Below, piece after piece: positions 13,838-29,611 of a stretch of 64,000 nucleotides of DNA. Source of the stretch: Hyphomonadaceae bacterium (GTDB taxonomy: Bacteria; Pseudomonadota; Alphaproteobacteria; Caulobacterales; Maricaulaceae); assembly GCA_013001295.1 (NCBI GenBank), contig JABDMW010000010.1, positions 1 to 64,000 on the forward strand, in the 5' to 3' direction. Below the pieces are notes generated by a model. That model worked only from the letters and a program-made list of their open reading frames with translations. It had not been told where the DNA came from and did no database searches. Each line of letters begins with the position of its first letter. Within the stretch, counting starts at the first letter, position 1. The translations under genes and the position numbers were made by a program.

Positions 13838-13851
13838 TTGACTGCCATCAA
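13838..13851 (-). promoter_or_regulatory. FNR/FixK box upstream of the universal stress operon
   Basis: TTGACTGCCATCAA matches the FNR/FixK consensus TTGA-N6-TCAA exactly. Its centre is about 62 bp from the usp start codon, compatible with class II activation and a short leader. A fixK gene with the matching Glu-Ser-Arg recognition residues lies at 25110-25763. Confidence 0.75.
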
Positions 13852-13862
13852 AAATTTTGCCT

Positions 13863-13889
13863 AAAAAAACCGGCTTTTGAAAAGCCGGT
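13863..13889 (-). terminator. Rho-independent terminator after hsp20
   Basis: ACCGGCTTTT (13869-13878) and AAAAGCCGGT (13880-13889) form a perfect 10-bp stem. Read on the - strand it is followed by a run of seven T. It ends the hsp20 transcript and separates it from the universal stress operon. Confidence 0.8.
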
Positions 13890-14012
13890 AAGTTGAGGGA
13901 AGTTCTGTCTACAACGTCACCGGTTCCTATTGTTTGTTGTGCACCGGAAAGAAGAAGGGGAGGGACTTTCCGTAACTGAAAACAATCGGAACCAGCGTCG
14001 TCGTTTGCGCCC

Positions 14013-14564
14013 TTACGACGCAGATTTTATTTCGATTTTCTGCGGTGTGCTTTCAACCTGAGCAGGTTTAGGAATGCTCAAATGCAAGACGCCTTTTTCA
14101 TAATTGGCTTCGATGTCGTCTGCTGCGACTTCAAATGGCAACGCAATTGATCGTTCATATACGCCGTAGCTCCGTTCAGAAACACGATGTTTGGCCTTGC
14201 GACGCGTATTGGATTGTTCGCGTTCGCCGCGAATTTTTAACATTGAATTTTCAATCGTTACGTCAATGTCTTTCATGTCCATGCCTGGCAATTCCGTTGT
14301 AATTTCAATTGAGTCATCGGTTTCGTCAAGATCCGTTGCGGGGATTTTAAACTCTGGAAAATCTGTTTGCCCATTCAGGCTAAACCGGTGATTAAATTGG
14401 TTGAAAATTTCATCGACCTCCTGACGCAAGCTTTGTAAGGGGGCAAATAGACTGGTATGATCGCCAAAAATTGAGTCACTTCCGAAAGCGCCGACAGGTC
14501 TGGATTTGTCCTTAACGCTAATATCGGTCTTGTTTTTTTTCTTTTCTTTTAACTTTGTTTTCAT
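14013..14564 (-). CDS. Hsp20/alpha-crystallin small heat shock protein
   Basis: A 183-residue ATP-independent holdase chaperone. The start at 14564 follows GGAGAG by a few bases; longer versions would include the ribosome-binding site. The first 20 residues are very lysine-rich. The alpha-crystallin domain spans about residues 70-165 and ends with the family signature ANYEKGVLHLSIPK. A proline-rich region and a short C-terminal tail follow. It has its own terminator and a near-consensus FixK box at 14648-14661, so it probably belongs to the low-oxygen regulon. Confidence 0.92.
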   Translation of the reverse strand: MKTKLKEKKKNKTDISVKDKSRPVGAFGSDSIFGDHTSLFAPLQSLRQEVDEIFNQFNHRFSLNGQTDFPEFKIPATDLDETDDSIEITTELPGMDMKDIDVTIENSMLKIRGEREQSNTRRKAKHRVSERSYGVYERSIALPFEVAADDIEANYEKGVLHLSIPKPAQVESTPQKIEIKSAS

Positions 14565-14647
14565 GGTGCTCTCCATTGGGGGGTTGCAAAGAGGCAGATT
14601 CGGAGGAATCCGCATGACCAGATCTATAGAGAAATTTTTGAATAAAA

Positions 14648-14661
14648 TTGACCTTAGTCAG
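14648..14661 (-). promoter_or_regulatory. Near-consensus FNR/FixK box between hsp20 and the receiver-like gene
   Basis: TTGACCTTAGTCAG differs from TTGA-N6-TCAA only at the last base and keeps the TTGAC...GTCA core shared by the other boxes in this region. It is centred about 90 bp from the hsp20 start and 105 bp from the divergent receiver gene, so it could serve either one. Confidence 0.55.
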
Positions 14662-14759
14662 TTTTGACGGGCGTTGTTGAATTATCGAATAAAAAAAGAA
14701 CATACACAGCGCACAAACACTAGATTTTTTCAGCGTAGTTTGGGGCGGGGTAGCTGCAC

Positions 14760-15131
14760 ATGACGAATATTATTTCATTTCCGCGAACCGTTTTTATCAT
14801 TGAAGTGCAGGATGCGCTTTCGCAATCTTTGAAATCCCTGCTGGAGTCGCATGAACGCGTCGTTCGAATATTCAGTCAAGCGCAGGAATTTTGGACTGAA
14901 AACATACACCGTGATCAAGATATAGTGCTGTTAAATTTTGAGCATCGCAAAACGTCAGGCTTCGAATTTTTAAATCGACTTTTAAATGCGAAAAGGCGTC
15001 CTCAAATCGTCATCACATCCCCGCGCGATTTGATTTTTAATGATACGGATGCTTTTTGTGGCGGACGGGTTACTATGCTTTTCCATCCGGTTACACCAAA
15101 AAGATTGGTCGAAACAATCCAGAGCTTATAA
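14760..15131 (+). CDS. Degenerate single-domain receiver protein (possible FixT-like regulator)
   Basis: A 123-residue protein whose fold follows a FixJ-type receiver domain, but the phosphorylation site is gone. The acidic pocket (Asp-Asp in active receivers) reads Glu15-Val16-Gln17. The phosphoacceptor Asp is Asn59 in LLNFEHRKTSG. The conserved Lys is His109 in LFHPVTP; a Thr in VITSPRD is kept. It has no output domain. It lies between hsp20 and the cco operon, with fixLJ about 8 kb downstream. Single receiver proteins such as Caulobacter FixT inhibit FixL, and a comparable feedback role is a reasonable hypothesis. Unlike FixT of Caulobacter it has only one Cys, so an Fe-S centre is unlikely. 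Confidence 0.65.
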   Translation: MTNIISFPRTVFIIEVQDALSQSLKSLLESHERVVRIFSQAQEFWTENIHRDQDIVLLNFEHRKTSGFEFLNRLLNAKRRPQIVITSPRDLIFNDTDAFCGGRVTMLFHPVTPKRLVETIQSL

Positions 15132-15207
15132 ATAAGTAATCCTATTGTCGGTCAGACCTTATAGGTCACGACCATGGTGCTCGGCCTTGATGTGTCCGAG
15201 AGTAAAC

Positions 15208-15357
15208 TTAGAGCGGCTTGTCCTCTGAATGTAGAATGCGCGCGGCGTCTCCTTCAGGGTCTTCATATTGGTCATTTCTTATTGTCCAAAAAAAGCCGGC
15301 GAGACCAATCAGGCCGAGCACAATTGCAATCGGGATCAACCATAAAAGAGAATTCAT
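15208..15357 (-). CDS. ccoS: cbb3-type cytochrome oxidase assembly protein CcoS
   Basis: A 49-residue protein with one N-terminal membrane helix (LLWLIPIAIVLGLIGLAGFF) followed by a polar tail with WTIRNDQYEDPEGDAARIL. That is the CcoS/FixS signature, with the Asp/Glu-rich D-PEGDA-RIL end. CcoS is needed to load heme and copper into the oxidase. Its ATG overlaps the ccoI stop by 4 bp (ATGA), so it is the last gene of the ccoNOQPGHIS operon. Confidence 0.92.
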   Translation of the reverse strand: MNSLLWLIPIAIVLGLIGLAGFFWTIRNDQYEDPEGDAARILHSEDKPL

Positions 15358-17615
15358 GTTGTTGGCCTCCGCTCAGGTTTAGTAACGCGCATGCGTAGCG
15401 CGTTCAAAGTCACAAGCAAGGATGAAAGCGACATGGCAATTGCGGCGATCAATGGATTTACAAAACCAAAAACGGCCAGCGGGACGGCGAGAATGTTATA
15501 TACGACGGCCAGTCCCAAGTTTTCTTTGACACGCTGTTGCGCTTTTTGGGCGACTTCGAGGACGACAGGCAAGCCTTCTAGATCGTCGCCTAACAAGATG
15601 ATATCCGAACTCGCCCGCGTCACCATAGCGGCTGTTGCGGGTGAAGCGGACGCCGTTGCCGCTGCGAGCGCCGGCGCATCATTTATACCATCACCAACCA
15701 TCATCGGGAAAAGCCCCTGTTCCTGCAATTGACCGAGCCGGGCTAATTTATCTTTTGGACTGACTTCACCGGCCCATTTTTGAATACCAAGATCTTGCGC
15801 GACAGTGCGGGCCATTTCAACTGTATCACCGCTCAGGAGTTCCAACTCATATCCTCGATCTTTTAATTGTTCGATCACGTGCAGGCTGTCGCCGCGGATA
15901 CGGTCCTTAAATTCAAACATCACCGGTTTCCGTGTGCCGATTTTGAGCCACGCCATATTGCGCATATCGTTTTCCCTCTTGACGCCACACCAAGATCCAG
16001 ATCCAAATTTTACAGATTTTCCGTCTATGATAGCCTGGAGACCTTTCCCGGGAATTTCCTTGATATCTTTTGCCAGCGGTCCTTTGCCGGCGGCGCGGGC
16101 AACAGCACGGGCTTTCGGGTGCGTCGAGGCCCGCGCTAGTTTTGCAGCACTTTCAAGTTGGTCTTTTGAAATGTCTTTTCCATTCGCTAGAGCGAGGCGT
16201 CCCAATGTTAATGTACCCGTTTTATCAAAAATGATATTATCTATTTTGGCCAACCGTTCCAACGCGTCACCGGACCGGATTAAAACACCTTTTTTAAACA
16301 ATCGCCCTGCAGCGACAATCTGGACAGCTGGTACGGCCAAACCAAGCGCACATGGGCAGGTAATAATCAGGACTGCAATGGCATTGATCATTGCCGTTCG
16401 TATCTCGCCGCCAACCATAAGCCAGCCCAGAAAAGTAAGCAGCGCTAAACTATGGACAATTGGGACATAGGCTTTGGCGGCCTTGTCAGCGATTTTTACA
16501 TACCGGCTCTTTTTTTGTTCGCCCGCTTCGACCATTTTGCTGATTTCGGACAGAAACGAATCCTCGCTCACAGCCAGGGCTTCGATTTGAAGCGGCGCCC
16601 CTATATTGATCATACCTGAGTATACTTTATCGCCCGGTTTGGCATGCTGCGGCAGGGCTTCACCTGTTGCAATGCTGGCGTCGACTTCTGAAATTCCTTG
16701 TTTGATTTGCCCATCGACAGGTACATTTTCACCAGCTGCAATCAACAGCAAATCACCCGGTTTAACTTGCGAAGTTCGAACGGATTTAATACTTCCGTCG
16801 GGCAGAATTAAATTGGCAGAATGCGCTTGCATGGCCGCTAAGCGTTGTGCGCTTTCGCCGGTTCGCAGGCGCAACCGCATATCCAGATACCGGCCGATCA
16901 AAAGTAGAAAGCACAACATCACGGCAGCATCGAAATAAGTATCGGGATTTTTATTGATCGTTTCGTATAAGCTGAGTGCGCAGGCGAGTATCAGCGCCAG
17001 GGAAATCGGCACATCCATATTCGTTGTTCGATTTTTCAACGCCTGCCAGGCGGACGCGAAAAATACGCGCCCGGAATAGGCGACGACCGGAATGGCAATA
17101 AGTGCAGAAATCCAATGCATTAATGTTTGCTGGCTATCCGTCATTTCACCGCTGCTGGCCCAGACGCCTACAGATAACAACATGATATTTGCGCTGGCAA
17201 AACCGGCGACTGCCATGGCTTTCAAAAGCTTTGATAATTGTTTTTTAGTGCCAAGCGGTTGCAACTCGATGTCGAACGGTTGCGTTCCATATCCGAGACT
17301 GCTTAACAAATTGGCGATTTGATCAGCTTTGTTTTTAGCTCCCGTCCAATGAATGGTTAATCGAAGGGTCGAAAGGTTCATGCGAGCGAATTGAACGCCG
17401 TCAAGTGCTGAAATATTGCGTTCGATCTTGGCGACGCATCCAGCGCAGTGCACACCGCTGACCATCAGGTTCAAGCTATGCGTTCCATCCGCACGGGTTT
17501 GAACGAAATCGATATAATTAATAGATCGTGATGCACCAGATGACTGGCGCGCTAAATCAAGTCCGGTGTCTTGCCCACTCGGGCAACCCATATCATTTTC
17601 AATTATTGAAGCCAT
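15354..17615 (-). CDS. ccoI: Copper-translocating P-type ATPase for cbb3 oxidase assembly, CcoI
   Basis: A 753-residue P1B-type ATPase that moves copper for the CuB site of the cbb3 oxidase. An N-terminal heavy-metal domain carries HCAGC (about residues 56-60). The membrane metal-binding motif is ITCPCALGLAVP. The phosphorylation loop has DKTGTLT and the hinge has GDGINDAPAL. The start at 17615 overlaps the ccoH stop by 13 bp; an internal Met nine codons in is an alternative, and neither has a clear ribosome-binding site. Position between ccoH and ccoS fixes the assignment as CcoI rather than a general copper exporter. Confidence 0.94.
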   Translation of the reverse strand: MASIIENDMGCPSGQDTGLDLARQSSGASRSINYIDFVQTRADGTHSLNLMVSGVHCAGCVAKIERNISALDGVQFARMNLSTLRLTIHWTGAKNKADQIANLLSSLGYGTQPFDIELQPLGTKKQLSKLLKAMAVAGFASANIMLLSVGVWASSGEMTDSQQTLMHWISALIAIPVVAYSGRVFFASAWQALKNRTTNMDVPISLALILACALSLYETINKNPDTYFDAAVMLCFLLLIGRYLDMRLRLRTGESAQRLAAMQAHSANLILPDGSIKSVRTSQVKPGDLLLIAAGENVPVDGQIKQGISEVDASIATGEALPQHAKPGDKVYSGMINIGAPLQIEALAVSEDSFLSEISKMVEAGEQKKSRYVKIADKAAKAYVPIVHSLALLTFLGWLMVGGEIRTAMINAIAVLIITCPCALGLAVPAVQIVAAGRLFKKGVLIRSGDALERLAKIDNIIFDKTGTLTLGRLALANGKDISKDQLESAAKLARASTHPKARAVARAAGKGPLAKDIKEIPGKGLQAIIDGKSVKFGSGSWCGVKRENDMRNMAWLKIGTRKPVMFEFKDRIRGDSLHVIEQLKDRGYELELLSGDTVEMARTVAQDLGIQKWAGEVSPKDKLARLGQLQEQGLFPMMVGDGINDAPALAAATASASPATAAMVTRASSDIILLGDDLEGLPVVLEVAQKAQQRVKENLGLAVVYNILAVPLAVFGFVNPLIAAIAMSLSSLLVTLNALRMRVTKPERRPTT

Positions 17616-18088
17616 AACTCATTGCGAGTTGAAAACTCAAACCCTTCATTGGTGTTGGCTCTGATGACGAGCGTGCGTTGGCCAAATACAGGTTTGTCTA
17701 TTTTCGCCAGATAGGTGCCGTCGCCCCGCTCGATAAATTCCAAGGATAAATCTTCTGACGTGTCTGTTGGATGCCTTAGTTTTCCCTCCAGATTGAGTGC
17801 TGAAACAAGCGTATTGGATCCGTCGCGAATTTGTATTCGAACCTGCTCAGTCGAATAGTCGAGCGCAGCTGTCCATCCGGCCGCTTTTTGCGCTGCCCGT
17901 TCTTCGAGCGTGTCATTATAGTGCAGGCCTTGAAGATAGGATTTTTTGGTATCTTCACCGCGAAAACTGGTAATTGATTTGGCAATCATGAAGGCATTGG
18001 CGGCAACGATAACAGCGAAAAAGCCCAACACCATGAACAAGACTTGCTTACCCGTAAGGGATTTCGATATTTTTTCGCCTGTGCTCAT
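17603..18088 (-). CDS. ccoH: cbb3 oxidase assembly protein CcoH (FixH)
   Basis: A 161-residue FixH-family protein with one N-terminal membrane helix (about residues 16-37) and a periplasmic domain. The domain contains the family features YLQGLHYNDTLEERAAQKAAGW and a late FGQRTLVIRA-type strand. CcoH binds the assembling oxidase subunits and stabilises the complex. The start overlaps the ccoG stop by 4 bp, and the gene overlaps ccoI by 13 bp at its end. Confidence 0.9.
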   Translation of the reverse strand: MSTGEKISKSLTGKQVLFMVLGFFAVIVAANAFMIAKSITSFRGEDTKKSYLQGLHYNDTLEERAAQKAAGWTAALDYSTEQVRIQIRDGSNTLVSALNLEGKLRHPTDTSEDLSLEFIERGDGTYLAKIDKPVFGQRTLVIRANTNEGFEFSTRNELWLQ

Positions 18089-19569
18089 TTCTCGGTCTTT
18101 CCAGTGATGAACAGGGACGGTGTCAACACTTTCTCATTGGTTTGCGTATCTTCCAGCACGAAATTGAATCCTTCTCGAACCTGAAGTCCCGACACATCCT
18201 CCAACGCCACATAAACTTTATAATCAATTGTTTGATTGGCGGGGACGCTGATCGTTTGCGGATTATCCTGTCCGACAATACGCAAGACTGGATTTTGGAA
18301 CTTGTCGAGGGTCAAATCGAGTGTGCGCACTTGTGGCGTCTTATTGAGGACTTTGATTTGATACCCGTTGCGTATCGAGCCATCGGAAAGTTCGACAAAA
18401 TTGGGGATACGATCGCGTTGTACATTCATATCAAGTGTCGACCGATTGAGTAGCCCGAAAAGCATAAAGCTGCCGACAGCCGCAAATAAAATAGCGTAAA
18501 TGACAGTTCGTGCCCGGATCAGCTCGAATTTTTCTTTCGCGCCTTTTTGGCGCCGCTCAATATTGGCGTCCGTGTCATAGGCGATCAACCCGCGCGGACG
18601 ATCGATTTTATCCATTATCTCGTTACACGCATCTATACACAACGCACATCCGATACATTCGAGCTGCAACCCGTCCCGAATATCGATACCGGTCGGGCAA
18701 ACGGCAACACACTGTCGGCAATCAATACAATCGCCGCGGCCTTCCCATGTGGCGTTTTTCTTATGTGCGCCGCGCGGTTCGCCGCGGTCATACCGATATG
18801 TGACGTTCAAGGCCTTGTCGTCGATCATGGCGGCCTGAATGCGCGGCCATGGGCACATATAAGTACATACTTGTTCGCGCATATATCCGGCGAGCGTATA
18901 GGTCGTAAATGTGAGCAAGCCCATGAATACATAGGATGTAATCGGGGCATGCCCAATTAAAAAATCACGAAAAATGGTTGGCGCGTCATGAAAGTATAAG
19001 ATCCAGGCACCACCTGTGGCAGCCGCGACTAAAATCCAAACGATATGTTTCGCGGTCTTGCGCCAAATTTTATTAAAGTCCCACTTGGCGCGATCGAGTT
19101 TAATCCGCGCATTGCGGTCGCCTTCGAAAAAACGCTCGATTGCGATGAATAAATCCGTCCAAATCGTCTGCGGGCAGGCATACCCACACCAGACCCGGCC
19201 AAACAAAGCGGTGACGAGAAATAATCCGAGCGCAGCCAGTATGAGGAGGCCTGTGATATAATACACTTCCTGTGGCCAAATTTCGATAAAGAAGAAATAG
19301 AACCGTGCGTTTTCAAAATCGACGAGAACCGCCTGACTGGGGGCATCAGGTCCGCGGTCCCAGCGAATCCACGGGATAAAATAATAAATGCCCAACAGGA
19401 TAAACAGGGCAGCCCATTTTAATTTGCGAAAATTTCCATGCGCCAATTTCGCGTAAATTTGTTTGCGTTTTGCGTACAGGCTTTGCGGCGTTGACGGACT
19501 GACCGCAACGGCTTTTGACCGGTCAATACCGGGCGCAGCCTGGACCTGATTATCGTTGGTTTGTATCAT
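18085..19569 (-). CDS. ccoG: Cytochrome c oxidase accessory protein CcoG (FixG), ferredoxin type
   Basis: A 494-residue inner-membrane protein with several helices and two [4Fe-4S] motifs, CIDCRQCVAVCP and CIGCALCIDAC. An Ig-like C-terminal FixG domain follows. CcoG is reported to act as a cupric reductase during cbb3 assembly. A GAGGA ribosome-binding site precedes the ATG. It starts 15 bp after ccoP and overlaps ccoH by 4 bp. Confidence 0.93.
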   Translation of the reverse strand: MIQTNDNQVQAAPGIDRSKAVAVSPSTPQSLYAKRKQIYAKLAHGNFRKLKWAALFILLGIYYFIPWIRWDRGPDAPSQAVLVDFENARFYFFFIEIWPQEVYYITGLLILAALGLFLVTALFGRVWCGYACPQTIWTDLFIAIERFFEGDRNARIKLDRAKWDFNKIWRKTAKHIVWILVAAATGGAWILYFHDAPTIFRDFLIGHAPITSYVFMGLLTFTTYTLAGYMREQVCTYMCPWPRIQAAMIDDKALNVTYRYDRGEPRGAHKKNATWEGRGDCIDCRQCVAVCPTGIDIRDGLQLECIGCALCIDACNEIMDKIDRPRGLIAYDTDANIERRQKGAKEKFELIRARTVIYAILFAAVGSFMLFGLLNRSTLDMNVQRDRIPNFVELSDGSIRNGYQIKVLNKTPQVRTLDLTLDKFQNPVLRIVGQDNPQTISVPANQTIDYKVYVALEDVSGLQVREGFNFVLEDTQTNEKVLTPSLFITGKTEK

Positions 19570-19583
19570 GGCTCCTCAGCAGC

Positions 19584-20471
19584 CTACTGTGTCGGCGCAT
19601 CCGATTTCTCGCCACCGCCCAATGAATGAACATAGTATGCGAGAGAATTGACCATATCGGGCGAGAGGCGTTCTTTCCAATGCGGCATGACGCCGGCGCG
19701 ACCATTTGTCAGGGTTTCAACGATTGTGGCCCGGTCGCCGCCGTATAACCATTCATTATCTGACAAATCAGGTGCGCCCTGCAATCGATCGCCTTTTCCG
19801 TCCATCCCATGACAAGATGCGCACTGTTCCTGGTAGAGTGTCGACACGCGTGCAATAGCCGAGGCATCTGCTTCACGACCGGAAAGACTAACGACGTATT
19901 CTGTTAAATCACTAATCTCTTCGCGCGTGAGTAATTCATCACGACCATAGGCTTGCATCAGTGAAACGCGCGTGTCTTCATGCAAAGCGCGAATACCGTA
20001 ATTCAAAGTTTGACGTATGTCCTCATAGCTTCCGCCCCATAACCAGATATCATCATTGAGATTGGGATATCCCGGCAGACCCTGTCCATTTGTTCCGTGA
20101 CACGTCGCACAATTGTCGCCAAATGCCGATTCTCCCGCAGCCAATGCGTAACGGAGTAAATCTTCGTCGCCTTCAATTGTTTCAATATCAGCACTGAGCA
20201 TTTTATTGGCATAGACAGCGCGCTGGTCGGTCAATTTATATAGCTCTTCAACAACTTCAACGCGGTCGGATTTTCCCAACACACCTTTTGAATAGCTGTC
20301 AATTCCAGGAAGCGCAGGCATTAAAATGGCATAAATTATGGCAAAAACAATCGACGCATAAAATATCCATAACCACCACCGCGGCATGGGTGTGTTCAGT
20401 TCTTCGATCCCGTCCCATTCGTGGCCCGTGACCTCGGTTCCCGATTGTTCGTCTATACGCTTTTCACTCAT
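19584..20471 (-). CDS. ccoP: cbb3-type cytochrome c oxidase subunit III, diheme CcoP
   Basis: A 295-residue diheme cytochrome c subunit. It has one membrane helix (about 33-53), then two heme c domains with CATCH (121-125) and CASCH (217-221). The Met ligands lie in the later MQ and VMPHW regions. It accepts electrons from soluble cytochrome c and passes them to CcoO. It overlaps ccoQ by 8 bp and is followed by ccoG. Confidence 0.95.
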   Translation of the reverse strand: MSEKRIDEQSGTEVTGHEWDGIEELNTPMPRWWLWIFYASIVFAIIYAILMPALPGIDSYSKGVLGKSDRVEVVEELYKLTDQRAVYANKMLSADIETIEGDEDLLRYALAAGESAFGDNCATCHGTNGQGLPGYPNLNDDIWLWGGSYEDIRQTLNYGIRALHEDTRVSLMQAYGRDELLTREEISDLTEYVVSLSGREADASAIARVSTLYQEQCASCHGMDGKGDRLQGAPDLSDNEWLYGGDRATIVETLTNGRAGVMPHWKERLSPDMVNSLAYYVHSLGGGEKSDAPTQ

Positions 20472-20652
20472 CGGATTCTCCGTTTTTATTATCAGAGATC
20501 AGGCTTTCATCTGAGATTGGTCTTTCAGACGCTTTCTTGAATTTTTCGCGATTACCGGGCCAAAATACGTATAAGAGAACAGCCATGAAGAACGCGAAGA
20601 AAAAAACGGTCCCGCCTATCTTCACCCAGTGTGCGATTGTGCCGTATTCCAT
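20464..20652 (-). CDS. ccoQ: cbb3-type cytochrome oxidase subunit CcoQ
   Basis: A 62-residue protein with one membrane helix (about residues 14-32) that ends in VFWPGNREKFKKA, the usual CcoQ/FixQ transition, followed by an acidic tail. CcoQ stabilises the assembled oxidase. It starts 2 bp after ccoO and overlaps ccoP by 8 bp. Confidence 0.9.
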   Translation of the reverse strand: MEYGTIAHWVKIGGTVFFFAFFMAVLLYVFWPGNREKFKKASERPISDESLISDNKNGESDE

Positions 20653-20654
20653 AC

Positions 20655-21389
20655 TTACCTCTGATTCTCGTTGGTCTCGGCTTCATATTCCGAAAAGTCG
20701 ACGAGCGTACCGAGTATTTGCAAATACGCGACCAAAGCGTCCATCTCGGTTAAATTATCCGGATCGCCATCAAATTCTCGCATGACGGCTTTCGGATAAC
20801 GCTCGATAAACCCATCGGCGTCATCCGCGAATTCATCGAGTTGTGTTTTCATGTCTGAAGCCGCTTTCTCAATCATTTCATCTGTATAGGGGACGCCGAG
20901 TTTCTGGTTGGCTTTCAAGTGCATTGCAATCCGGTCTGTCGGCAATTTCGTCTCAGACAGAAATTTGTATGGGGGCATGACCGACGCTGGAACAAGGGCC
21001 TGCGGGTTTTCGAGATGCAAGACATGCCATTCGTCCGAATACTTGCCGCCAACCCGTGCCAGATCCGGTCCGGTGCGTTTCGATCCCCATTGGAATGGCC
21101 GGTCATACATGCTTTCAGCAGCCAAAGAATAGTGTCCGTAGCGCTCGACCTCATCGCGTAAAGGCCGGATCATTTGCGAATGACACGTATAGCATCCTTC
21201 GCGAACATAAATGTCCCGTCCAGCCAGTTCTAACGGCGAATAGGGCCGCATGCCTTCGACCTCTTCGATGGTACTGTCGATGTAAAATAGCGGGGCAATC
21301 TCGACCATCCCGCCAATCGAAACGACGCCTAATATGCCGACCAGAAGGGCAAAGGAGCGTTTTTCCATAAATGTATGTAGTTTGGACAT
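20655..21389 (-). CDS. ccoO: cbb3-type cytochrome c oxidase subunit II, CcoO
   Basis: A 244-residue monoheme cytochrome c subunit. It has an N-terminal membrane helix (about 13-35) and a heme-binding [12 protein letters not shown] with Cys66, Cys69 and His70. A Met ligand falls within [10 protein letters not shown]. It carries electrons from CcoP to the heme b of CcoN. It follows ccoN by 9 bp. Confidence 0.95.
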
Positions 21390-21398
21390 TTCTTGCTC

Positions 21399-23072
21399 CT
21401 ATACCGTTGCCAGGGTGGGCGTGTCAGGAAGGTCCTCCGCTGGCACCACTTGGTCGAGCGGTACGGCATTGCCTCGACCTTTGATGGTCATCCACAAATT
21501 AAACGACATCAACATGCTACCCAAAAGGAACAGCCCGCCACCCAGCGCCCGGATAATGTAGGCCAGATGCTTCATTTCTACCGTCTCGATGAAGGAATGC
21601 TCCAAGAAGCCGAGTTCATTGTATTTGCGCCACATCAGGCCTTCACCAATACCCGCGCCCCACATCGCTGTGATGTAAAAAAGAATACCGATGGTCGCGA
21701 GCCAGAAATGCCACTCGACCAAACGTGTCGAATAAAGATCTTTGCGCTTCCACAGCCATGGAACCATGCAGTACAAGGCACCGAAGCTGATCAATCCATT
21801 CCACCCGAGTGCCCCGGAATGCACATGCCCGACGGTCCACTCTGTATAATGGGACAGGGCATTGACATACCGGATCGACATAAGCGGGCCTTCGAATGTC
21901 GCCATTCCGTAAAATGCGACGGAAACAACAAGGAAACGGAGAACGGGATCGGTTCGCAGTTTGTCAAATGCACCCGCAAGCGTCATCAGGCCATTGATCA
22001 TACCACCCCAGCTTGGCATTAAGAGCATGACCGAGAACACCATACCCAATGTCTGCGTCCACTGTGGTAAGGCGGTATAATGCAAATGATGCGGACCTGC
22101 CCAGATGTAAATGAAGATCACGGTCCAAAAGTGTACAATCGAGAGCTTGTAAGACCATATGGGTCGATTGGCCCGTTTGGGGATGAAATAATACATCATG
22201 GCAAGAAAGCCGGTGGTCAGGAAAAAACCGACAGCATTGTGTCCATACCACCACTGGGTCATAGCGTCTTGGACACCACTAAATGCGGAGTAGGATTTCG
22301 CGCCCAATAAGCTGACCGGCATGGCCAGATTATTGACGATGTGCAGCATCGCGATGGTCACGATGAACGATAGGAAGAACCAGTTGGCCACATAAATGTG
22401 CGGTTCTTTCCGCTTTACCAGTGTCATCATAAAGACACCGAGATATGCGACCCAAACAATGGTAAGCCAAATATCCACATACCATTCCGGTTCGGCATAT
22501 TCCTTAGACGCCGTTATTCCCAATAAATAACCCGTTGCCGCAAGGACGATGAAAAGTTGGTAGCCCCAAAAGACGAACCAAGGCCAAATACCGCCTGCCA
22601 ATCGGGTTCGGCAGGTACGCTGGACGATATAAAACGACGAGGCGATCAGCATATTGCCACCGAAAGCAAAGACGACGCCTGATGTGTGGAGGGGGCGTAA
22701 TCGACCAAAGCCCATCCAGGGCAATTCTGCAAAATAAAAAGTCTCGGGGAAGGCCAGTTGCAATGCGATAACCAGGCCGACCAACATGCCGACCATGCCC
22801 CAAAACGCGGTGGCAATGACGCCCGCTTTAATCACATTGTCATCATATTCGGTGGAGTCGAATTTAAACCGGTTGTCGAAGACCCCGAAAACCAGTGCGG
22901 CAAGGCCTAAAGCGAATCCGCCCATCATCATGAAAGCATGCGGTTCCATTGTTGGATCGCCACCACGTGCCGCGGCCATTAAAGCCCACAAAAATCCGAG
23001 GATGAGTATCACTCCAATCGGAAATACTGCGTCATGCGCGTTTGGCAACGACATGGACCTTGATTGAGCCAT
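21399..23072 (-). CDS. ccoN: cbb3-type cytochrome c oxidase catalytic subunit I, CcoN
   Basis: A 557-residue heme-copper oxidase subunit with about 14 hydrophobic segments. It has the family's conserved histidine motifs such as WWYGHNAV and [15 protein letters not shown]. It reduces oxygen to water with high affinity and pumps protons, supporting respiration at low oxygen. The ATG is preceded by AAGGAGGGG. A perfect FixK box lies 48 bp upstream and a TATAAG -10-like hexamer lies about 22 bp upstream. It is the first gene of ccoNOQPGHIS and diverges from fixL. Confidence 0.96.
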
Positions 23073-23119
23073 AATCCCCTCCTTTTGAGTCGTACTTATA
23101 AGTCGACCTTAGGCGATTT

Positions 23120-23133
23120 TTGACCAAGGTCAA
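23120..23133 (-). promoter_or_regulatory. FNR/FixK box upstream of ccoN
   Basis: TTGACCAAGGTCAA is a perfect inverted repeat with 6-bp arms and matches TTGA-N6-TCAA. TATAAG at 23095-23100 (read on the - strand) is correctly placed as a -10 element. Together they give a class II layout, with the box centred about 40 bp from the predicted start of transcription, and a leader just long enough for the AAGGAGG ribosome-binding site. Confidence 0.88.
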
Positions 23134-23269
23134 TTTTCTGTCATACTAAATCCGGTTTGTTACGGTGATCTGTAACATGATAATCCGTGATCGCTTTCTC
23201 GACACGATTCCTTTATCGGAAATTCATTATTCGCTCGCTTAACTTAATCCTATTTGCTTAACTATTGAC

Positions 23270-24388
23270 ATGACTCACGATGATGCACAGGTCGAGCTCG
23301 AAGCCGTTCTCAATACAATTGTCGATGGCGTAATCATCATCAATGATAGGGGCGTCATGCAATTGTTTAACCCGGCATGCGAAAAAATGTTCGGGTATAA
23401 GCCAGATGAAGTCATTGGAAAAAACGTTAAAACATTGATGCCCGACCCATACACGACTGAGCATGACGGTTATATTCAAAATTATCTCAATACCAAAACA
23501 AGAAAAATTATTGGAATTGGCCGCGAGGTCAGGGGGCGTCGTCAGGACGGCACGACATTTCCCATGCATCTGTCTGTCGGTGAAGCCAAAATCGCGACGC
23601 GGACTATATTTGTTGGCATCATCCACGATTTAACGCGACGGCAAGAGGAGAGCGAAAAGTTCGAAAATTTGCAGCAAAAACATTTTCATCTATCGCGCGT
23701 CTCGGCCATGAATGAAATGGGATCTGCGATCGCCCATGAACTCAACCAGCCGATGACTGCGACGATAAATTATCTGGAAGCCGGGAAAGTCATGCTTGAC
23801 CAGAACAACGCTTTAGACGTTGAAAAACTCAAATCGGTGATGGACAGGGCAGTTGATCAAACCAAACGAGCATCGGAAATCATTTCCCGCATGCGCAGCT
23901 TTATTCGAACCGGCGACCTGGATAAGAAACCTGTGGAATTAGAGATCTGTCTGAAGACGGCCGTTGAACTGGCACTCATGCCTTTTAAAACAGTTGGAAT
24001 TAAGTGTACCTATGACATCAGCAGAGACATTCCGGAAATTTATGTAAACTCTATCCAAATTCAGCAAGTCGTTGTAAATTTGGTAAAAAATGCCTGCGAA
24101 GCCATGCTGGAAAGCGACACAAAAGAACTGCATATATCCGCCAAACGTCACGATGACAGCGCTTTTGTAGAGATTGGTGTGGCTGATTCCGGACAGGGCA
24201 TAGATCAAGAACAACAAGAGCATTTATTCACGCCATTTACGTCAAGCAAGAAAGACGGGATGGGGATCGGGTTGTCGATCAGTGAATCGATAATCAGCAA
24301 TCATGGCGGGCGAATTTGGGCAGACATTAATGAACCGCTAGGCACGCGGTTTTGTTTCACTCTGCCGATTTCGACAGGTGATGATTAG
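23270..24388 (+). CDS. fixL: Heme PAS oxygen-sensor histidine kinase FixL
   Basis: A 372-residue soluble sensor kinase with one PAS domain (about 10-125), then HisKA and HATPase_c domains. The PAS domain has the FixL heme pocket: His65 in EHDGYI as proximal ligand and Arg85 in IGIGREV as oxygen-stabilising residue. The phosphorylated histidine is His156 in AIAHELNQPM, and the ATP lid ends in DGMGIGLSISESI. There is no membrane helix, so it is cytoplasmic, as in Bradyrhizobium. Low oxygen should switch on autophosphorylation and transfer to FixJ, whose gene starts on the next base. The ATG lacks an obvious ribosome-binding site. Confidence 0.93.
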   Translation: MTHDDAQVELEAVLNTIVDGVIIINDRGVMQLFNPACEKMFGYKPDEVIGKNVKTLMPDPYTTEHDGYIQNYLNTKTRKIIGIGREVRGRRQDGTTFPMHLSVGEAKIATRTIFVGIIHDLTRRQEESEKFENLQQKHFHLSRVSAMNEMGSAIAHELNQPMTATINYLEAGKVMLDQNNALDVEKLKSVMDRAVDQTKRASEIISRMRSFIRTGDLDKKPVELEICLKTAVELALMPFKTVGIKCTYDISRDIPEIYVNSIQIQQVVVNLVKNACEAMLESDTKELHISAKRHDDSAFVEIGVADSGQGIDQEQQEHLFTPFTSSKKDGMGIGLSISESIISNHGGRIWADINEPLGTRFCFTLPISTGDD

Positions 24389-25006
24389 ATGAGCCGTATC
24401 AATCACAATATTTGTATCGTTGACGATGATCCTGCCGTTCTTGACTCCCTGACATTAATGTTGGAAACCATTGGGTGCACGGTCACATCGTTTCCCGACG
24501 GGACCAGCTTTCTCAATTCCGATCTTAAAAATTTTCGCGGTTGCGTCTTGCTGGACGTGCGAATGCCTGGAAAGGACGGCATGTCCGTTTTGCGAGAAGC
24601 TCTTGCGATCAATCCGCTGTTACAAGTCGTTATGATTAGCGGCCATGGCGATATTGCGATGGCGGTTAAGGCACTAAAGGACGGTGCTCAAGACTTTATC
24701 GAGAAACCATTTAAAGCTGATATCATCATTCCCGCACTGGATCGGGCATGCGAAAAATTGACGGCGGAACGTTCTGATAAAGCTTTTGAAGTGGAAGCCA
24801 AAGAAAACCTGGCCCGGCTCACTGAGCGAGAGTTGCAGGTTCTGGAAAGGCTTGTCGATGGGAAGCCGAACAAAATTGTGGCTTTTGAGCTCAGTATATC
24901 TATCCGTACAGTCGAAACGCATCGCGCGCGTATTCTTCAAAAGACCAGGGCAAATTCAATTGCGGAACTCGTCAAAATGAAAATCGCTGCTGATGGACAT
25001 GGATAA
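24389..25006 (+). CDS. fixJ: Two-component response regulator FixJ
   Basis: A 205-residue regulator with a receiver domain (about 1-120) and a LuxR-type helix-turn-helix (about 140-200). The receiver is intact: the acidic triplet Asp12-Asp13-Asp14, phosphoacceptor Asp56 in LLDVRMPGKDG, and Lys106 in DFIEKPF. The output domain has LTERELQVLERL and the recognition helix SIRTVETHRARIL. Its ATG directly abuts the fixL stop. The likely main target is fixK, about 100 bp downstream, where a FixJ-like site is visible. Confidence 0.93.
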   Translation: MSRINHNICIVDDDPAVLDSLTLMLETIGCTVTSFPDGTSFLNSDLKNFRGCVLLDVRMPGKDGMSVLREALAINPLLQVVMISGHGDIAMAVKALKDGAQDFIEKPFKADIIIPALDRACEKLTAERSDKAFEVEAKENLARLTERELQVLERLVDGKPNKIVAFELSISIRTVETHRARILQKTRANSIAELVKMKIAADGHG

Positions 25007-25023
25007 ATATAAGTCTATTTCAA

Positions 25024-25045
25024 GTCCGTAGTTTTACGTACGTAC
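25024..25045 (+). promoter_or_regulatory. Candidate FixJ-binding region upstream of fixK
   Basis: GTCCGTAG (25024-25031) and GTACGTAC (25038-25045) each match seven of eight positions of the reported FixJ core GTAMGTAG. The second lies in a perfect 10-bp palindrome TACGTACGTA (25035-25044). The region is 65-85 bp upstream of the fixK ATG, a usual distance for a FixJ activation site. The consensus is recalled from the literature and was not tested here. Confidence 0.5.
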
Positions 25046-25109
25046 ATTACCGATCTACTCCGAAACGATACGCACGCTATCTTGTTGTCATTGGATAAGG
25101 AGATTGGAA

Positions 25110-25763
25110 ATGCAGCATCAAGTCGTCGAGAACTTCACACCTACTTTCGTGCCGCCCATCACAAAAACGCCAACGCATTTGGGACGGATACATCCTGAAA
25201 AAACCCCATTGTTTCATCAAGGAGATCCAAGCAAATATTTTTACAAAGTCAGAAGCGGCGTCGTCATGACGTATCGGCTTTTGAAAGATAGTCAGCGTCA
25301 AATCACCGGATTTTGTACGGCGGGCGATTTTTTGGGCATGACGTCTGATGGTATTCAGCATGATACAGCGATTACCGTCACAACGTGTAATATTGTCAGA
25401 TTAACAAGAGCAGAAATACAAGCCGACAAAGAGTTACAACAAGAGCTTTTTACGAAGACCTGCCTGCAATTGGAAGAAGCTCAGGATATGATGATGACGC
25501 TAACGAAAAAGTCGGCGTCAGAGAAAGTTGCAGCCTTTTTGGTCATGTTGGCGAACCGGCAAAAATCCGAAACAAATGAAGCCGATATTCGCCTCCCGAT
25601 GTCACGTCAGGATATAGCAGATTTTCTCGGCATGAGTATTGAAACAGTCAGCCGCCGACTAACGGCGCTGAAAAGCAAGCAAGTGATTGGCCTTCCGAGC
25701 CGTCATATTGTTCATATTTTTAATATGGGGGCACTCAAAAAACTGGCAGGAGCCAGGTCTTAG
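25110..25763 (+). CDS. fixK: Crp/Fnr-family transcription regulator FixK
   Basis: A 217-residue regulator with a cyclic-nucleotide-binding-like N-terminal domain and a C-terminal winged helix (about 140-210). The ATG at 25110 follows AAGGAG; a TTG two codons earlier would lie against that site. The Fnr cysteine cluster is absent at the N-terminus, so it does not sense oxygen itself but relays FixLJ. The recognition helix contains Glu178, Ser181 and Arg182 (ETVSRR), the set that reads TTGA half-sites. Matching boxes precede ccoN, usp, hsp20, the SDR gene and the PolX-N gene in this window. Confidence 0.9.
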   Translation: MQHQVVENFTPTFVPPITKTPTHLGRIHPEKTPLFHQGDPSKYFYKVRSGVVMTYRLLKDSQRQITGFCTAGDFLGMTSDGIQHDTAITVTTCNIVRLTRAEIQADKELQQELFTKTCLQLEEAQDMMMTLTKKSASEKVAAFLVMLANRQKSETNEADIRLPMSRQDIADFLGMSIETVSRRLTALKSKQVIGLPSRHIVHIFNMGALKKLAGARS

Positions 25764-25774
25764 CGGGGGCCGTT

Positions 25775-26317: not shown

Positions 26318-26341
26318 GTTGATTAAATACTCTATCAAGTG

Positions 26342-27133
26342 ATGACGCTCACACCCAAGAAAAACACACAGGAAATTTGGCAAGAGGATTTGCCAATATC
26401 TAAATTTGACGCCCACAAATACGACCGCGGTCATGCCGTCATTTTTGCAGCGCCGGAATTGACCGGTGCGACACGATTGGCGGCCAGTGCCTGTTCGCGC
26501 ATAGGTGCCGGCCTGACAACCGTTTTAGCTCCCGTTCGGGCCGATATTTATCGAACGGCACTCCCTGCAGATATCATGGTGCGCGAAACGATGACGTCGC
26601 TGTCCTCAAAAATAGCCGTTACTCTCGGCGGTCCTGGCGGCCTCCTGGTCGAACACCGCGACGCAATTCTCGATAATGTTTTGAAGTCCAATCGAGTTTT
26701 TGATGCAGGCGCAATTCCCGTAAAATCCGATTTTTATTATTTGGATGAAAGCTGTGTTTTGACACCGCACGAAGGAGAATTCGCGAAAGTCTTTCCAAGA
26801 TTGTCCGGTCCCTTAATCAACAAGGCCGCCATGGCCGCTCAGGAATCTGGTGCCATTGTTGTCTTAAAAGGGCCGCGGACCCATATTGCTCATCCGGACG
26901 GTCGAATTGTTGTGAACGAACATGCCAGTCCGTACCTTGCCACGGCGGGAACCGGCGACGTTCTGGCTGGTATGATCGCCGGGTTGATTGCGCAAGGCAT
27001 GCCCAACTTCGAAGCGTGTTGCGCCGCAGTTTGGATTCACGGCGAAGCGGCAAGGCGGTTTGGTCCGGGCCTGATTGCAAGTGATATTCCGGACATCATC
27101 CCTCAAATACTTGCCGATTTATTGAAAAAATAA
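26342..27133 (+). CDS. nnrD: ADP-dependent NAD(P)H-hydrate dehydratase
   Basis: A 263-residue protein equal to the C-terminal (ribokinase-like) domain of YjeF/Nnr enzymes, which repair damaged NAD(P)H hydrates using ADP. Visible motifs are KYDRGHAVIF near the N-terminus, the TPHEGEF motif and the phosphate/active-site loop ATAGTGDVLAGMIAG. The NnrE epimerase domain found in the fused form is absent. A GTG one codon earlier is an alternative start. It is the third gene of the fixK unit. Confidence 0.85.
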   Translation: MTLTPKKNTQEIWQEDLPISKFDAHKYDRGHAVIFAAPELTGATRLAASACSRIGAGLTTVLAPVRADIYRTALPADIMVRETMTSLSSKIAVTLGGPGGLLVEHRDAILDNVLKSNRVFDAGAIPVKSDFYYLDESCVLTPHEGEFAKVFPRLSGPLINKAAMAAQESGAIVVLKGPRTHIAHPDGRIVVNEHASPYLATAGTGDVLAGMIAGLIAQGMPNFEACCAAVWIHGEAARRFGPGLIASDIPDIIPQILADLLKK

Positions 27134-27223
27134 CATCGTATTGTTGCTTTGATCAGTCGAACGCGGAATCCTATGCGCTAAATTCTGTGTAAAAATTTCA
27201 AAGTTCAATTGTCACAAAAACAA

Positions 27224-28306
27224 TTATGCTTTGAGCGCGGTACGGAAATTAATGAATTCCATTATATTTTGCAGATTGATAACGCCGACCAGTTGATTGT
27301 TTTTTTGCACGGCAATCAAATTCGGTTGATGGCTTATCAGCATATCGAACGCTTTTTCGAGCGGTGCATCGCTGGCGCATTGTGCGATTTCGCGCCGGGC
27401 ATAGTCGTTGACAGGTGCCAATTCACCTTGTTCCTTTAATCCCCGTAACAAGTCGATTTGGGTTAATATGCCGACCGGTTTGCCATGGTCGATAACCGGA
27501 AAGTCAGTTTGGGTGCCTGCCAGCGTTAGTTGAATGGCCTGCCTGAGCGTATCATGAGGGGACAGCGTCGAAAATTCTGTCAGCATGGCCTGTTTTGCAG
27601 TTTGTCCCGAAAGCATGGCTTTCAGGGTGACCATGCCCGATTCAGACGCTGCACCGAACCACACGAAAGCGGCAATAATGACAAGAAGTGGATTATAGAG
27701 AAGACCTAGCAAGCCAAAGAACAGCGCCAAGGTCTGTCCGGCCCTAGCCGCGATTTCTGTTGCTTTATCCCTCGGCATTCGAAACGACAATAAAGCTCTG
27801 AATACTCGTCCACCATCCATGGGGAATGCCGGCAGCAAATTGAAAATTACAAGCGAAATATTGACCATCATCAGTGCTGCAATCGAAAAACCGTTTTCCA
27901 ATTTTAGCTGCTCTATATTGACCGGAATATCGTTGAGCATGATCCATATCCATAGCCCAAATGCGATGACAACATTGACGGCGGGGCCTGCGAGCGCGAC
28001 GATGATTTCTTGTTTTGGGTCTTCGGGAAGTGTCTCAAATGTGGCCACGCCGCCGATGGGCAATAAGGTAATATGGCGTGTTTTATAGCCAAACCGCCGA
28101 GCGGTCAGCGCATGACCAAATTCATGCAAAACCACGCAGGCAAAAAGCGTTATGACGAAGCTGATGCCCGAAATCACCGCCTGCCAGCTTTGTCCGATAT
28201 TCCAGAAGACAATGCCGATCCACACCAGGAAAATCAAAAAAGTTGCATGGATATAAATATCTATCCCGGCAACCCTCAACAGCTTCCACGACCATTTCAC
28301 GTTCAA
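27224..28306 (-). CDS. Site-2-type metalloprotease (M50) with C-terminal CBS pair
   Basis: A 360-residue membrane protease. The zinc motif HEFGH (His61, Glu62, His65) lies in an early membrane helix, and the third ligand is in LLPAFPMDGGRVF (Asp about 164). Residues about 240-355 form two CBS domains, which usually bind adenine nucleotides. Such proteins cut substrates within the membrane, often in signalling. The gene starts 18 bp after an SDR gene that has a FixK box, so it is probably induced at low oxygen and may link energy state to proteolysis. The substrate is unknown. Confidence 0.9.
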   Translation of the reverse strand: MNVKWSWKLLRVAGIDIYIHATFLIFLVWIGIVFWNIGQSWQAVISGISFVITLFACVVLHEFGHALTARRFGYKTRHITLLPIGGVATFETLPEDPKQEIIVALAGPAVNVVIAFGLWIWIMLNDIPVNIEQLKLENGFSIAALMMVNISLVIFNLLPAFPMDGGRVFRALLSFRMPRDKATEIAARAGQTLALFFGLLGLLYNPLLVIIAAFVWFGAASESGMVTLKAMLSGQTAKQAMLTEFSTLSPHDTLRQAIQLTLAGTQTDFPVIDHGKPVGILTQIDLLRGLKEQGELAPVNDYARREIAQCASDAPLEKAFDMLISHQPNLIAVQKNNQLVGVINLQNIMEFINFRTALKA

Positions 28307-28324
28307 CCGTCCAATCGTTGATTT

Positions 28325-29095
28325 TCAGGCCGCCACATAGCCGCCGTCTACGGGCAAGTGGACTCCTGTGACGAATGAGGCCTCGGGTGAACAAAGCCAG
28401 ACAATAGCTGCAGCGGTTTCTTCGGGTTCACCTATCCGGCCCATAGGATGGAGTGGATCCATCATTTGCCGCGAATTTTGGGCGCCATCAGTAGCTTGAT
28501 CAGCAACCGAGTCCAGCATGTCGGTATTGATCCCGCCGGGGCAAATCGAGTTTACGCGGATCCCGTCCTTGGCGTATTCAAGAGCGCCGTTCTTGGTCAG
28601 GCCGTTCACCGCATGCTTTGAAGCAACATAAGCTGCCAATCCCGGAAAACCGATAAGACCGGCAATGGAGGCCAGATTGACAATCGCACCGCCGTTGGTT
28701 TTCAGCATGGCATCGATTTCCGCGCGCATACAGTAGAATACGCCCTTGATATTGACGTCGACAATACGGTCAAAATTATCATCGTCCTGCTCTACCAGAT
28801 TAGCCATACTTCCCAATATGCCGGCATTGTTTACGGCGCAGTCCAATCGGCCATATGTCGCGATCGTTTTGGCAATAAGGTTTTCAACGTCTGCTTTTTT
28901 CGAAACGTCGGCGCGGATGAAAATAGCGTCACCACGCGATTTCCGGATTTGTGATGCGGTTTCTTCCCCGTCTTTCCTATTTACATCCGAAACAACAACT
29001 TTCGCGCCTTCAGCCGCAAACTTCAATGCCGTTTGCCGCCCGATACCGGCACCGGATCCGGTAACCATGGCAATTTTTCGGTCTACAAGTCCCAT
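28325..29095 (-). CDS. SDR-family oxidoreductase
   Basis: A 256-residue classical short-chain dehydrogenase. The ATG at 29095 was chosen because it puts the Rossmann motif TGSGAGIG at the usual distance from the N-terminus. It also shows NNAGILG and the active-site YVASK motif after NLASIAG. Closest in style to glucose-1-dehydrogenase or 3-ketoacyl reductase-like SDRs, but the substrate cannot be told. It leads a two-gene - strand unit with the M50/CBS protease, behind a perfect FixK box. Confidence 0.85.
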   Translation of the reverse strand: MGLVDRKIAMVTGSGAGIGRQTALKFAAEGAKVVVSDVNRKDGEETASQIRKSRGDAIFIRADVSKKADVENLIAKTIATYGRLDCAVNNAGILGSMANLVEQDDDNFDRIVDVNIKGVFYCMRAEIDAMLKTNGGAIVNLASIAGLIGFPGLAAYVASKHAVNGLTKNGALEYAKDGIRVNSICPGGINTDMLDSVADQATDGAQNSRQMMDPLHPMGRIGEPEETAAAIVWLCSPEASFVTGVHLPVDGGYVAA

Positions 29096-29144
29096 CGCGG
29101 CAACCTTTCTTTCCGAAAAGTTACCTTCAGGCCTATTTGCTGAA

Positions 29145-29158
29145 TTGACGACTATCAA
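29145..29158 (-). promoter_or_regulatory. FNR/FixK box upstream of the SDR-M50 unit
   Basis: TTGACGACTATCAA matches TTGA-N6-TCAA exactly and lies 50 bp upstream of the SDR start codon, almost the same geometry as the cco and usp boxes. Confidence 0.75.
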
Positions 29159-29611
29159 TTTTGCACAGAATCAGATCTCAGGATTTCAGTTTTGGAGCAT
29201 TTCGCACAGTATCAGCAGCTCAATCGCAATTTTCGACGCATCGGAAAGACCTGAACCATCGATCGTCAAGTCTGTAGTATTTCTTAAGTGGCTTCCCGAA
29301 CTTATGAGGCTCGCGACAAACGATAATTCTGGTCGCCTATACATGTAGGGAGCAAGCTGGAAATTTGACCGTGATCAAAATTTATAACGAAGAATCAGAT
29401 ATCCAGATCATGTTGTAACAAGGAGTAGACTTATAGGCACAACATCCCAGCTAATCCAAGCTGATTAATTCGAGACAAGAGTCGATAGGAATACGGTGAA
29501 TGGTTGCGACGGGGCCCGGATCGGATTGGCGTGAGCGCGTTGAGTTTACTTTACGTGGATCGTATTTCCTCCGGGCTTTCTGTACTGCTAGTCTCATGGC
29601 GAGAAATCCGC
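29159..29611. other. Divergent intergenic region between the SDR and PolX-N genes
   Basis: About 450 bp without a convincing gene. It contains the FixK box at 29365-29378. An AAGGAG at about 29420 is followed by no usable start codon. A reading frame continuous with the downstream gene opens from a TTG at 29504, but it has no homology-like features before the ATG at 29612. No RNA gene or repeat was recognised. Confidence 0.6.
29365..29378 (+). promoter_or_regulatory. FNR/FixK box upstream of the PolX-N gene
   Basis: TTGACCGTGATCAA matches TTGA-N6-TCAA. It lies about 240 bp before the chosen start of the PolX-N gene, so a long leader or an upstream start would be needed. It is a second box in the same divergent region as the site at 29145-29158. 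Confidence 0.65.

Follow-up and report, generated by a model that had tools for sequence, protein, structure and literature searches.

The closest described systems to the locus considered here are the FixLJ-FixK circuits of Sinorhizobium meliloti and Caulobacter crescentus. The locus is a putative FixLJ-FixK low-oxygen regulon in a 64,000-nucleotide stretch of DNA from Hyphomonadaceae bacterium (contig JABDMW010000010.1; hereafter the window), where FixK boxes surround fixL, fixJ and fixK. In S. meliloti RCAM1115, fixL, the FixJ gene, an annotated fixT, a helix-turn-helix gene (product 37% identical to the window FixK) and ccoN lie in this order, with an adjacent universal stress protein (usp) gene. 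Exact boxes stand before usp and ccoN, 66.5 and 60.5 bp from the starts extrapolated from the window proteins and 72.5 and 99.5 bp from the annotated starts. The S. meliloti ccoN box is of the form TTGAT-N4-ATCAA and the usp box is mixed, unlike those of the window. A FixJ-like, CTAAGTAGTT-like site between fixT and fixK resembles the sites of two other genomes, G014 and G030. Compared with S. meliloti, the window has a receiver gene away from fixK that shares a box with hsp20, and M50, SDR and PolX-N genes are added.

C. crescentus possesses a FixLJ-FixK-FixT circuit, from which the window differs in that its receiver has one Cys and is without a four-Cys Fe-S motif. FixT inhibits FixL autophosphorylation, and neither in S. 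meliloti nor in Caulobacter was phosphorylation of FixT itself detected. Outside Caulobacter, FixT lacks the four-Cys motif, and the Caulobacter and Sinorhizobium proteins are only 21.5% identical.

The contents of such regulons have been described before. In the available excerpt of Dufour et al. 2010 (PMC2908626), Hsp20, CBS-domain and cytochrome c proteins are among the predicted members of the FixK regulon, as are FixJ and FixL, and the FNR regulon includes UspA and cbb3 genes; the window's M50-SDR unit and PolX-N-like gene are not among the members listed there. Excerpted accounts of Bradyrhizobium describe Usp, CBS and Hsp20 proteins as microoxia-induced, and a rhizobial hsp20, whose anaerobox lies at -87.5 relative to its start, is described in such excerpts as showing about 50-fold, FnrN-dependent induction. 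The excerpt of Cullen et al. 2018 (PMC6127331) compares the low-oxygen-activated (lxa) locus of Burkholderia cenocepacia with DosR; that locus has six Usp genes and a heat shock protein, and a FixK homologue is discussed there as regulator. Unlike the window, the lxa locus comprises 50 genes and belongs to another bacterial class. The mycobacterial DosR regulon, as far as the excerpts list it, shares content with the window (Usp, alpha-crystallin Hsp-X, and the metalloprotease Rip3/Rv2625c). DosR is a response regulator, not a CRP/FNR protein. The comparison of the window with DosR, which a preliminary description of this DNA had proposed, is taken as a likeness of content only. For the Burkholderia locus, a DosR analogy has already been published, and so have Usp, Hsp20, CBS and cbb3 genes as FixK/FNR targets.

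The window is read as a FixLJ-FixK low-oxygen regulon with a probability of roughly 0.8. Under this reading, falling oxygen would lead the heme-PAS kinase FixL to phosphorylate FixJ, and phosphorylated FixJ would activate fixK at a FixJ-like site in the leader of that gene. FixK would then bind TTGAC-N4-(G/A)TCAA boxes that lie, in class II manner, a nearly fixed distance before a -10 hexamer. Its predicted targets are the cbb3 oxidase, a usp-antiporter operon, hsp20, an SDR-M50 unit, a PolX-N-like gene and about 16 further sites in the genome. The box at 14648 would also drive a receiver at 14760, a putative FixT-type inhibitor of FixL, and so close a negative feedback loop. The genes, the boxes and their promoter spacing can be read directly in the DNA, as can the neighborhood of the receiver's homologues with fixJ and fixK in relatives and the missing active-site residues of the receiver; low-oxygen induction, FixK binding and inhibition of FixL by the receiver are what we infer. 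Positions are those of the 64,000-nt window, and "exact" refers to the pattern TTGAY-N4-RTCAA. The boxes are as follows:

13838 to 13851, minus strand: FixK box TTGACTGCCATCAA, exact match, before the usp1-usp2-11715-antiporter unit, with the -10-like hexamer CATCCT 21 bases behind
14648 to 14661, no strand assigned: FixK box TTGACCTTAGTCAG, one mismatch (ends in TCAG), between the divergent hsp20 and receiver genes
23120 to 23133, minus strand: symmetric FixK box TTGACCAAGGTCAA, exact, before ccoN, with the best -10-like hexamer TATAAG 19 bases behind
29145 to 29158, minus strand: FixK box TTGACGACTATCAA, exact, before the SDR-M50 unit, with TAACTT 21 bases behind
29365 to 29378, plus strand: FixK box TTGACCGTGATCAA, exact, before the PolX-N-like gene, with TATCCA 21 bases behind

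The preliminary description had placed five boxes of one form around fixLJ-fixK, and all five are present, the 14648 box being off by one base at its 3' end. The best -10-like hexamers of the latter are TATAGA, 19 bases towards hsp20, and AATTAT, 18 bases towards the receiver gene. On both strands of the window, TTGAC-N4-RTCA has seven matches against 1.34 expected, and at least seven were found in 0 of 100 shuffles. Measured from the box centre, the likely start codon lies at 62.5 for usp1, 54.5 for ccoN and 56.5 for the SDR gene with ATG 29095. The 29145 box overlaps the listed SDR start, TTG 29158, which makes ATG 29095 the likelier start; if the gene begins there, the earlier statement that three boxes lie at nearly equal distances from their starts is right. 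The distance is 90.5 for hsp20 with ATG 14564 (the open reading frame (ORF) is listed from 14615, and by reading ATG 14564 has the better ribosome site), against the -87.5 given in the excerpted account of the rhizobial hsp20. It is 132.5 (TTG) or 240.5 (ATG) for the PolX-N-like gene.

The three regulatory genes and the candidate site in the fixK leader are:

23270 to 24388, plus strand: fixL, PAS histidine kinase (NCBIfam FixL E 3.2e-115, under the cut-off)
24389 to 25006, plus strand: fixJ, response regulator (NCBIfam FixJ E 2.5e-59, under the cut-off)
25028 to 25045, no strand assigned: FixJ-like site GTAGTTTTACGTACGTAC in the fixK leader, resembling by eye the sites before fixK in G014, G030 and S. 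meliloti
25110 to 25763, plus strand: fixK, CRP/FNR-type regulator with the reading helix SIETVSRR (FixK2 structure 4i2o, E 6.7e-26)

His65 and Arg85 of the FixL PAS domain, which we take to be the heme ligand and the FG-loop Arg, are invariant across four aligned FixL proteins including that of S. meliloti, and the kinase His156 is conserved. FixK2 is the closest protein to FixK among solved structures, and the window helix SIETVSRR, which contains the FNR-type E-x-x-S-R, aligns with TLETVSRA of FixK2. FNR carries an N-terminal Fe-S cysteine cluster; the window protein is without one, its first Cys being residue 69 of 217. The leader of fixK, which directly follows fixJ, holds no FixK box with fewer than two mismatches. 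Its sequence GTAGTTTTACG resembles a FixJ site and is a candidate judged by eye; a regular expression for the site matched three other fixK leaders and not that of the window. In the scan of named genomes, relatives of FixK reach at most 43% identity. Among 61 genomes, 46 have some match and three, including the genome itself, have a match with E below 1e-60; FixK proteins near 60% identity occur in G014 and G030 only.

FNR, FixK and DNR proteins have the site TTGA-N6-TCAA in common, and the boxes might be read by, or shared with, another CRP/FNR protein, with fixK governing a part only. HTH_Crp_2 has four matches in the genome, two of which are above the cut-off: FixK itself (I-E-T-V-S-R) and a protein at C36:192666, which is the candidate for such a role. 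The helix of the latter, R-E-T-I-S-R, is CRP-like by the residue rule, and the remaining two matches are weak (22 and 21 bits; one is DeoR-like in look). Boxes also precede ccoN and the receiver gene in both relatives that have a close FixK, and a second reader of the boxes is considered improbable.

The genome (3.49 Mb in 59 contigs, with the window on contig C15) contains 41 exact sites, compared with three of the reversed pattern. The 15.5 kb of the finding contains four of them, the 14648 site not being one of the 41. When 41 sites were placed uniformly in simulation, the best 15.5-kb stretch held at least four in 2.8% of runs. Contig C53 (G000:C53:109276-124047, L038) is denser, with six exact boxes over 14.8 kb, five of which fall within 8.2 kb; at least six boxes in one stretch occurred in 0.01% of runs. 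Its boxes neighbor beta-CASP hydrolase, CBS, DUF2267, glycine-zipper, DUF6544 and ABC-transporter genes. The crowding at the window is therefore real but not unique. The enrichment that the preliminary description expected of a genome-wide scan is found here, and the window as the single enriched place is ruled out by C53.

The form of a box is tied to its position relative to ORFs of at least 150 aa, which were called mechanically. TTGAC-N4-GTCAA lies outside them in 14 of 15 cases, mixed forms in 10 of 19, and TTGAT-N4-ATCAA in 0 of 7 (Fisher P 5e-5 for the first form against the last). From this, the factor that reads the boxes appears to prefer the TTGAC half-site. TTGAT-N4-ATCAA was ruled out as a form of the regulon box, all seven sites being inside such ORFs. 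One further box, L018:3064, is followed at about 40 bp by the gene of a Lon-like protease (LonB/LonC type), and in L175 a 52% relative adjoins hsp20 and usp.

A nearly fixed distance between the box and the -10 hexamer is typical of class II activation at FNR and CRP promoters. A weight matrix made by hand was used to score hexamers from 0 to 59 bases behind the boxes, with random rotations as the null. The 41 exact sites were divided into four in the window, 16 in chosen pairs, 16 inside ORFs as a control, and five left out (L018:3064, L021:3037, L024:3002, L026:3069 and L032:3082). The 26 chosen site-gene pairs are drawn from the window's four exact sites, the 16 other exact sites, and the inexact 14648 box taken both ways; one site used, L038:3077, falls in a mechanically called 242-aa ORF on the opposite strand. 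For the 26 pairs, the mean score is highest at 21 bases, where it reaches 4.59 (background 1.72), a peak matched in 0 of 5000 rotations. The 20 pairs outside the window likewise peak at 21 (4.41; 0 of 5000 rotations), as do the six window pairs alone (P 0.006). When no direction was chosen, the 24 sites outside long ORFs again peak at 21 (P 0.0036), and the control, 32 rows from the 16 in-ORF boxes, scores 1.07 at 21 and has no peak there. Within offsets 17-25, the best hexamer in the window lies at 21 for usp1, SDR and the PolX-N-like gene, at 19 for hsp20 and ccoN, and at 18 for the receiver. In G014 and G030, it lies at 21 in three of the four ccoN and receiver promoters and at 19 in the fourth. 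The window boxes are thus placed like class II FNR/FixK sites, with a near-fixed spacing to the -10 hexamer and some exceptions.

Several observations weigh against the FixK regulon or its parts. FixL, FixJ and FixK all fall under the NCBIfam equivalog cut-offs, so that their names rest on similarity and context: FixL reaches 385.6 bits against 850 (the match spans model positions 123-483 of 485), FixJ 200.2 bits against 255 (FixJ being the best of the models shown), and FixK 135.9 bits against 300 (E 1.1e-39, a Caulobacter-type model, the best of 11 models). With direction unchosen and the four window sites omitted, the peak at 21 weakens (P 0.077), and when all 41 sites are scored on both strands, offset 0 ranks first (2.27) and 21 second (2.22). 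The in-ORF control boxes peak at 39 (P 0.015 and, direction unchosen, 0.045), which shows that the spacing test alone can yield a P of that size by chance. The hsp20, ccoN and receiver promoters of the window peak at 18-19, not 21. The gap between fixJ and fixT in S. meliloti holds no good box, the best having two mismatches.

The relatives G014 and G030 provide a further point of this kind. A search with 49 query proteins, at loci picked by exact TTGACNNNNRTCAA, found an exact box at not much more than 100 bases for ccoN and the receiver only; the other 47 were not found near exact boxes in these two genomes, and one 35% SDR relative has a box 307 bp upstream. Since the pattern is also short, it could be argued that FixK truly controls no more than the cbb3 oxidase and the receiver, and that the usp, hsp20, SDR and PolX-N boxes are chance matches. 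The genome-wide excess of 41 against 3 speaks against this, as does the position of the best -10-like hexamer at exactly 21 bases behind the usp, SDR and PolX-N boxes. Relatives of usp in G044 and S. meliloti are also preceded by boxes, at about 65 bp from the extrapolated start (in S. meliloti, 72.5 bp when counted from the annotated one). Such a reduced set of targets is judged slightly less probable even than a second reader of the boxes. As for the FixK regulon proposed in the preliminary description, the type of regulator, the form and spacing of the boxes and the boxes of relatives lend it good sequence support. The description had overlooked that the 14648 box also faces a plus-strand gene, a receiver and probable FixT:

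14760 to 15131, plus strand: single-domain degenerate receiver, 123 aa (Response_reg only; the best NCBIfam match is FixJ, far under the cut-off)

This receiver has Asn where an Asp would be phosphorylated, and it has also lost the acidic pair and the conserved Lys. Matches at E of 0.001 or less occur in nine of 61 genomes; besides the genome itself, only G014 (38%) and G030 (40%) are below 1e-10. These two genomes share the order fixL-fixJ-box-receiver-fixK adjoining box-ccoNOPGHI, and the box upstream of the receiver homologue, at about 57-60 bp, is perfect. The place of FixT between fixJ and fixK is thus occupied by these homologues, and the window copy lies away from fixK.

The 14760 gene is probably a FixT-type inhibitor of FixL, a reading drawn from the place of its homologues by fixJ and fixK and from two properties of FixT. 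As FixT phosphorylation went undetected in S. meliloti and Caulobacter, the loss of the phosphorylation residues fits FixT, and as FixT outside Caulobacter is without the four-Cys motif, a single Cys does not exclude it. The Fe-S version of FixT was ruled out for the window receiver by that single Cys. Two points weigh against the name: the G014 and G030 receivers retain the Asp that the window copy lost (their acidic pair and Lys are lost likewise), and the low identity among FixT proteins in general means that similarity cannot settle it. The gene could instead be an ordinary orphan receiver or a decaying duplicate of FixJ. The missing acidic pair, Asp and Lys, the distance from fixK and the Asp retained by the homologues would suit this. 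In two other genera of the family, however, homologues of 37-41% identity consistently sit behind a box, flanked by fixJ and fixK, and they too lack the acidic pair and Lys. Residue loss is also in keeping with a FixT that is not detectably phosphorylated; an orphan or decaying receiver is therefore rather unlikely.

Other small receivers were observed near boxes or fix genes. A second single-domain receiver (L026:7230-7655) lies about 140 bp behind a box, points away from a CreA-family gene on the opposite side of that box, and retains the usual acidic, Asp and Lys residues. Small receivers that adjoin fixJ in L132, L171, L172 and L183 (Phenylobacterium zucineum and three order-mates) differ from the window receiver in retaining most phosphorylation residues.

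Less usual at this locus are the location of the window receiver and the fact that no box precedes fixK. In G014 and G030, one box precedes the receiver and fixK together, and FixK would activate both itself and its inhibitor. In the feedback loop of the window, FixK would drive only the brake and the chaperone. A tentative suggestion, more doubtful than the FixT assignment, is that feedback was rewired in the window's lineage, with fixK left without a box and the brake gene sharing one with hsp20. No reports of such rewiring were noticed in the titles and abstract starts of the literature, in which no dedicated search was made.

The remaining genes of the proposed regulon are:

10407 to 11678, minus strand: cation:proton antiporter (Na_H_Exchanger), after a 36-bp gap, probably the last gene of the usp operon
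11715 to 12086, minus strand: small protein without a Pfam match, 10-bp gap to usp2, probably in the usp operon
12097 to 12930, minus strand: usp2, universal stress protein 2 (Usp domain)
12946 to 13782, minus strand: usp1, universal stress protein 1 (Usp domain)
14013 to 14564, minus strand: hsp20, small heat shock protein (HSP20 domain)
21399 to 23072, minus strand: ccoN, cbb3 oxidase subunit I, first gene of ccoNOPGHI (15354-23072)
27224 to 28306, minus strand: M50 site-2-type protease with two CBS stretches (Peptidase_M50 and CBS)
28325 to 29095, minus strand: SDR oxidoreductase (adh_short_C2)
29504 to 30076, plus strand: PolX-N-like helix-hairpin-helix protein (HHH_8 and HHH_5), start at TTG 29504 or ATG 29612

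The gene order begins on the minus strand with an enoyl-CoA hydratase-like gene (labeled by reading), the antiporter, the small protein, usp2 and usp1. It continues with hsp20 (minus) and the receiver (plus), which are divergent, ccoIHGPON (minus), and fixL, fixJ and fixK (plus). Behind fixK are a CC0125-type lipoprotein gene and an NAD(P)H-hydrate dehydratase gene (plus), then the M50-CBS protease and SDR genes (minus), and the PolX-N-like gene (plus). CcoN is 73% identical to that of G030 and 75% to that of G014, and the operon order is alike. The N, O and P genes match annotated S. meliloti ccoN, ccoO and ccoP; G, H and I were named by reading. The NAD(P)H-hydrate dehydratase gene (26339-27133), two genes behind fixK, has relatives at the fixK loci L045 and L046, together with hsp20 and usp.

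The PolX-N-like protein matches the PolX model at positions 4-142 of 571 (E 3.4e-23). It is without the polymerase domain, and 200 genomes of the order hold five other matches: in a 158-codon frame in G111, a 317-codon frame in G127, and frames above 600 codons in G126, G131 and G085. The M50-CBS protease has no match at 1e-40 among 199 other genomes of the order, so the M50 gene, at least, is accessory. Relatives of usp at 1e-20 occur in 64 of the 200 order genomes; a usp pair of the same family (G185, 42%) has no exact box in 20 kb of its locus. Similar groups of genes are found again next to fixK elsewhere. Twelve named fixK loci include three with usp and hsp20 (L045, L046 and L049) and two with M50 (L049 and L055, the latter holding only a partial FixK match). 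Among seven fixK loci of six order-mates, usp is present in six and hsp20 in three; these loci were partly chosen for fixK, usp or polX-N matches, and the counts are not frequencies. The locus of G044 has eight boxes in 16 kb. Since published FixK and FNR regulons hold usp, hsp20 and CBS genes, it is reasonable to infer that the box genes of the window serve a low-oxygen survival program.

The locus would represent a new, sequence-supported FixK regulon of a known kind, the boxes of which can be separated from chance matches by the form of their half-sites and by promoter spacing. Its FixT-like gene is placed unlike those of its relatives, which raises the question of whether an inhibitor away from fixK alters the shape of the oxygen response. 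If the proposed rewiring is true, a loop with negative but no positive feedback would give a graded response to low oxygen, not a switch-like one.

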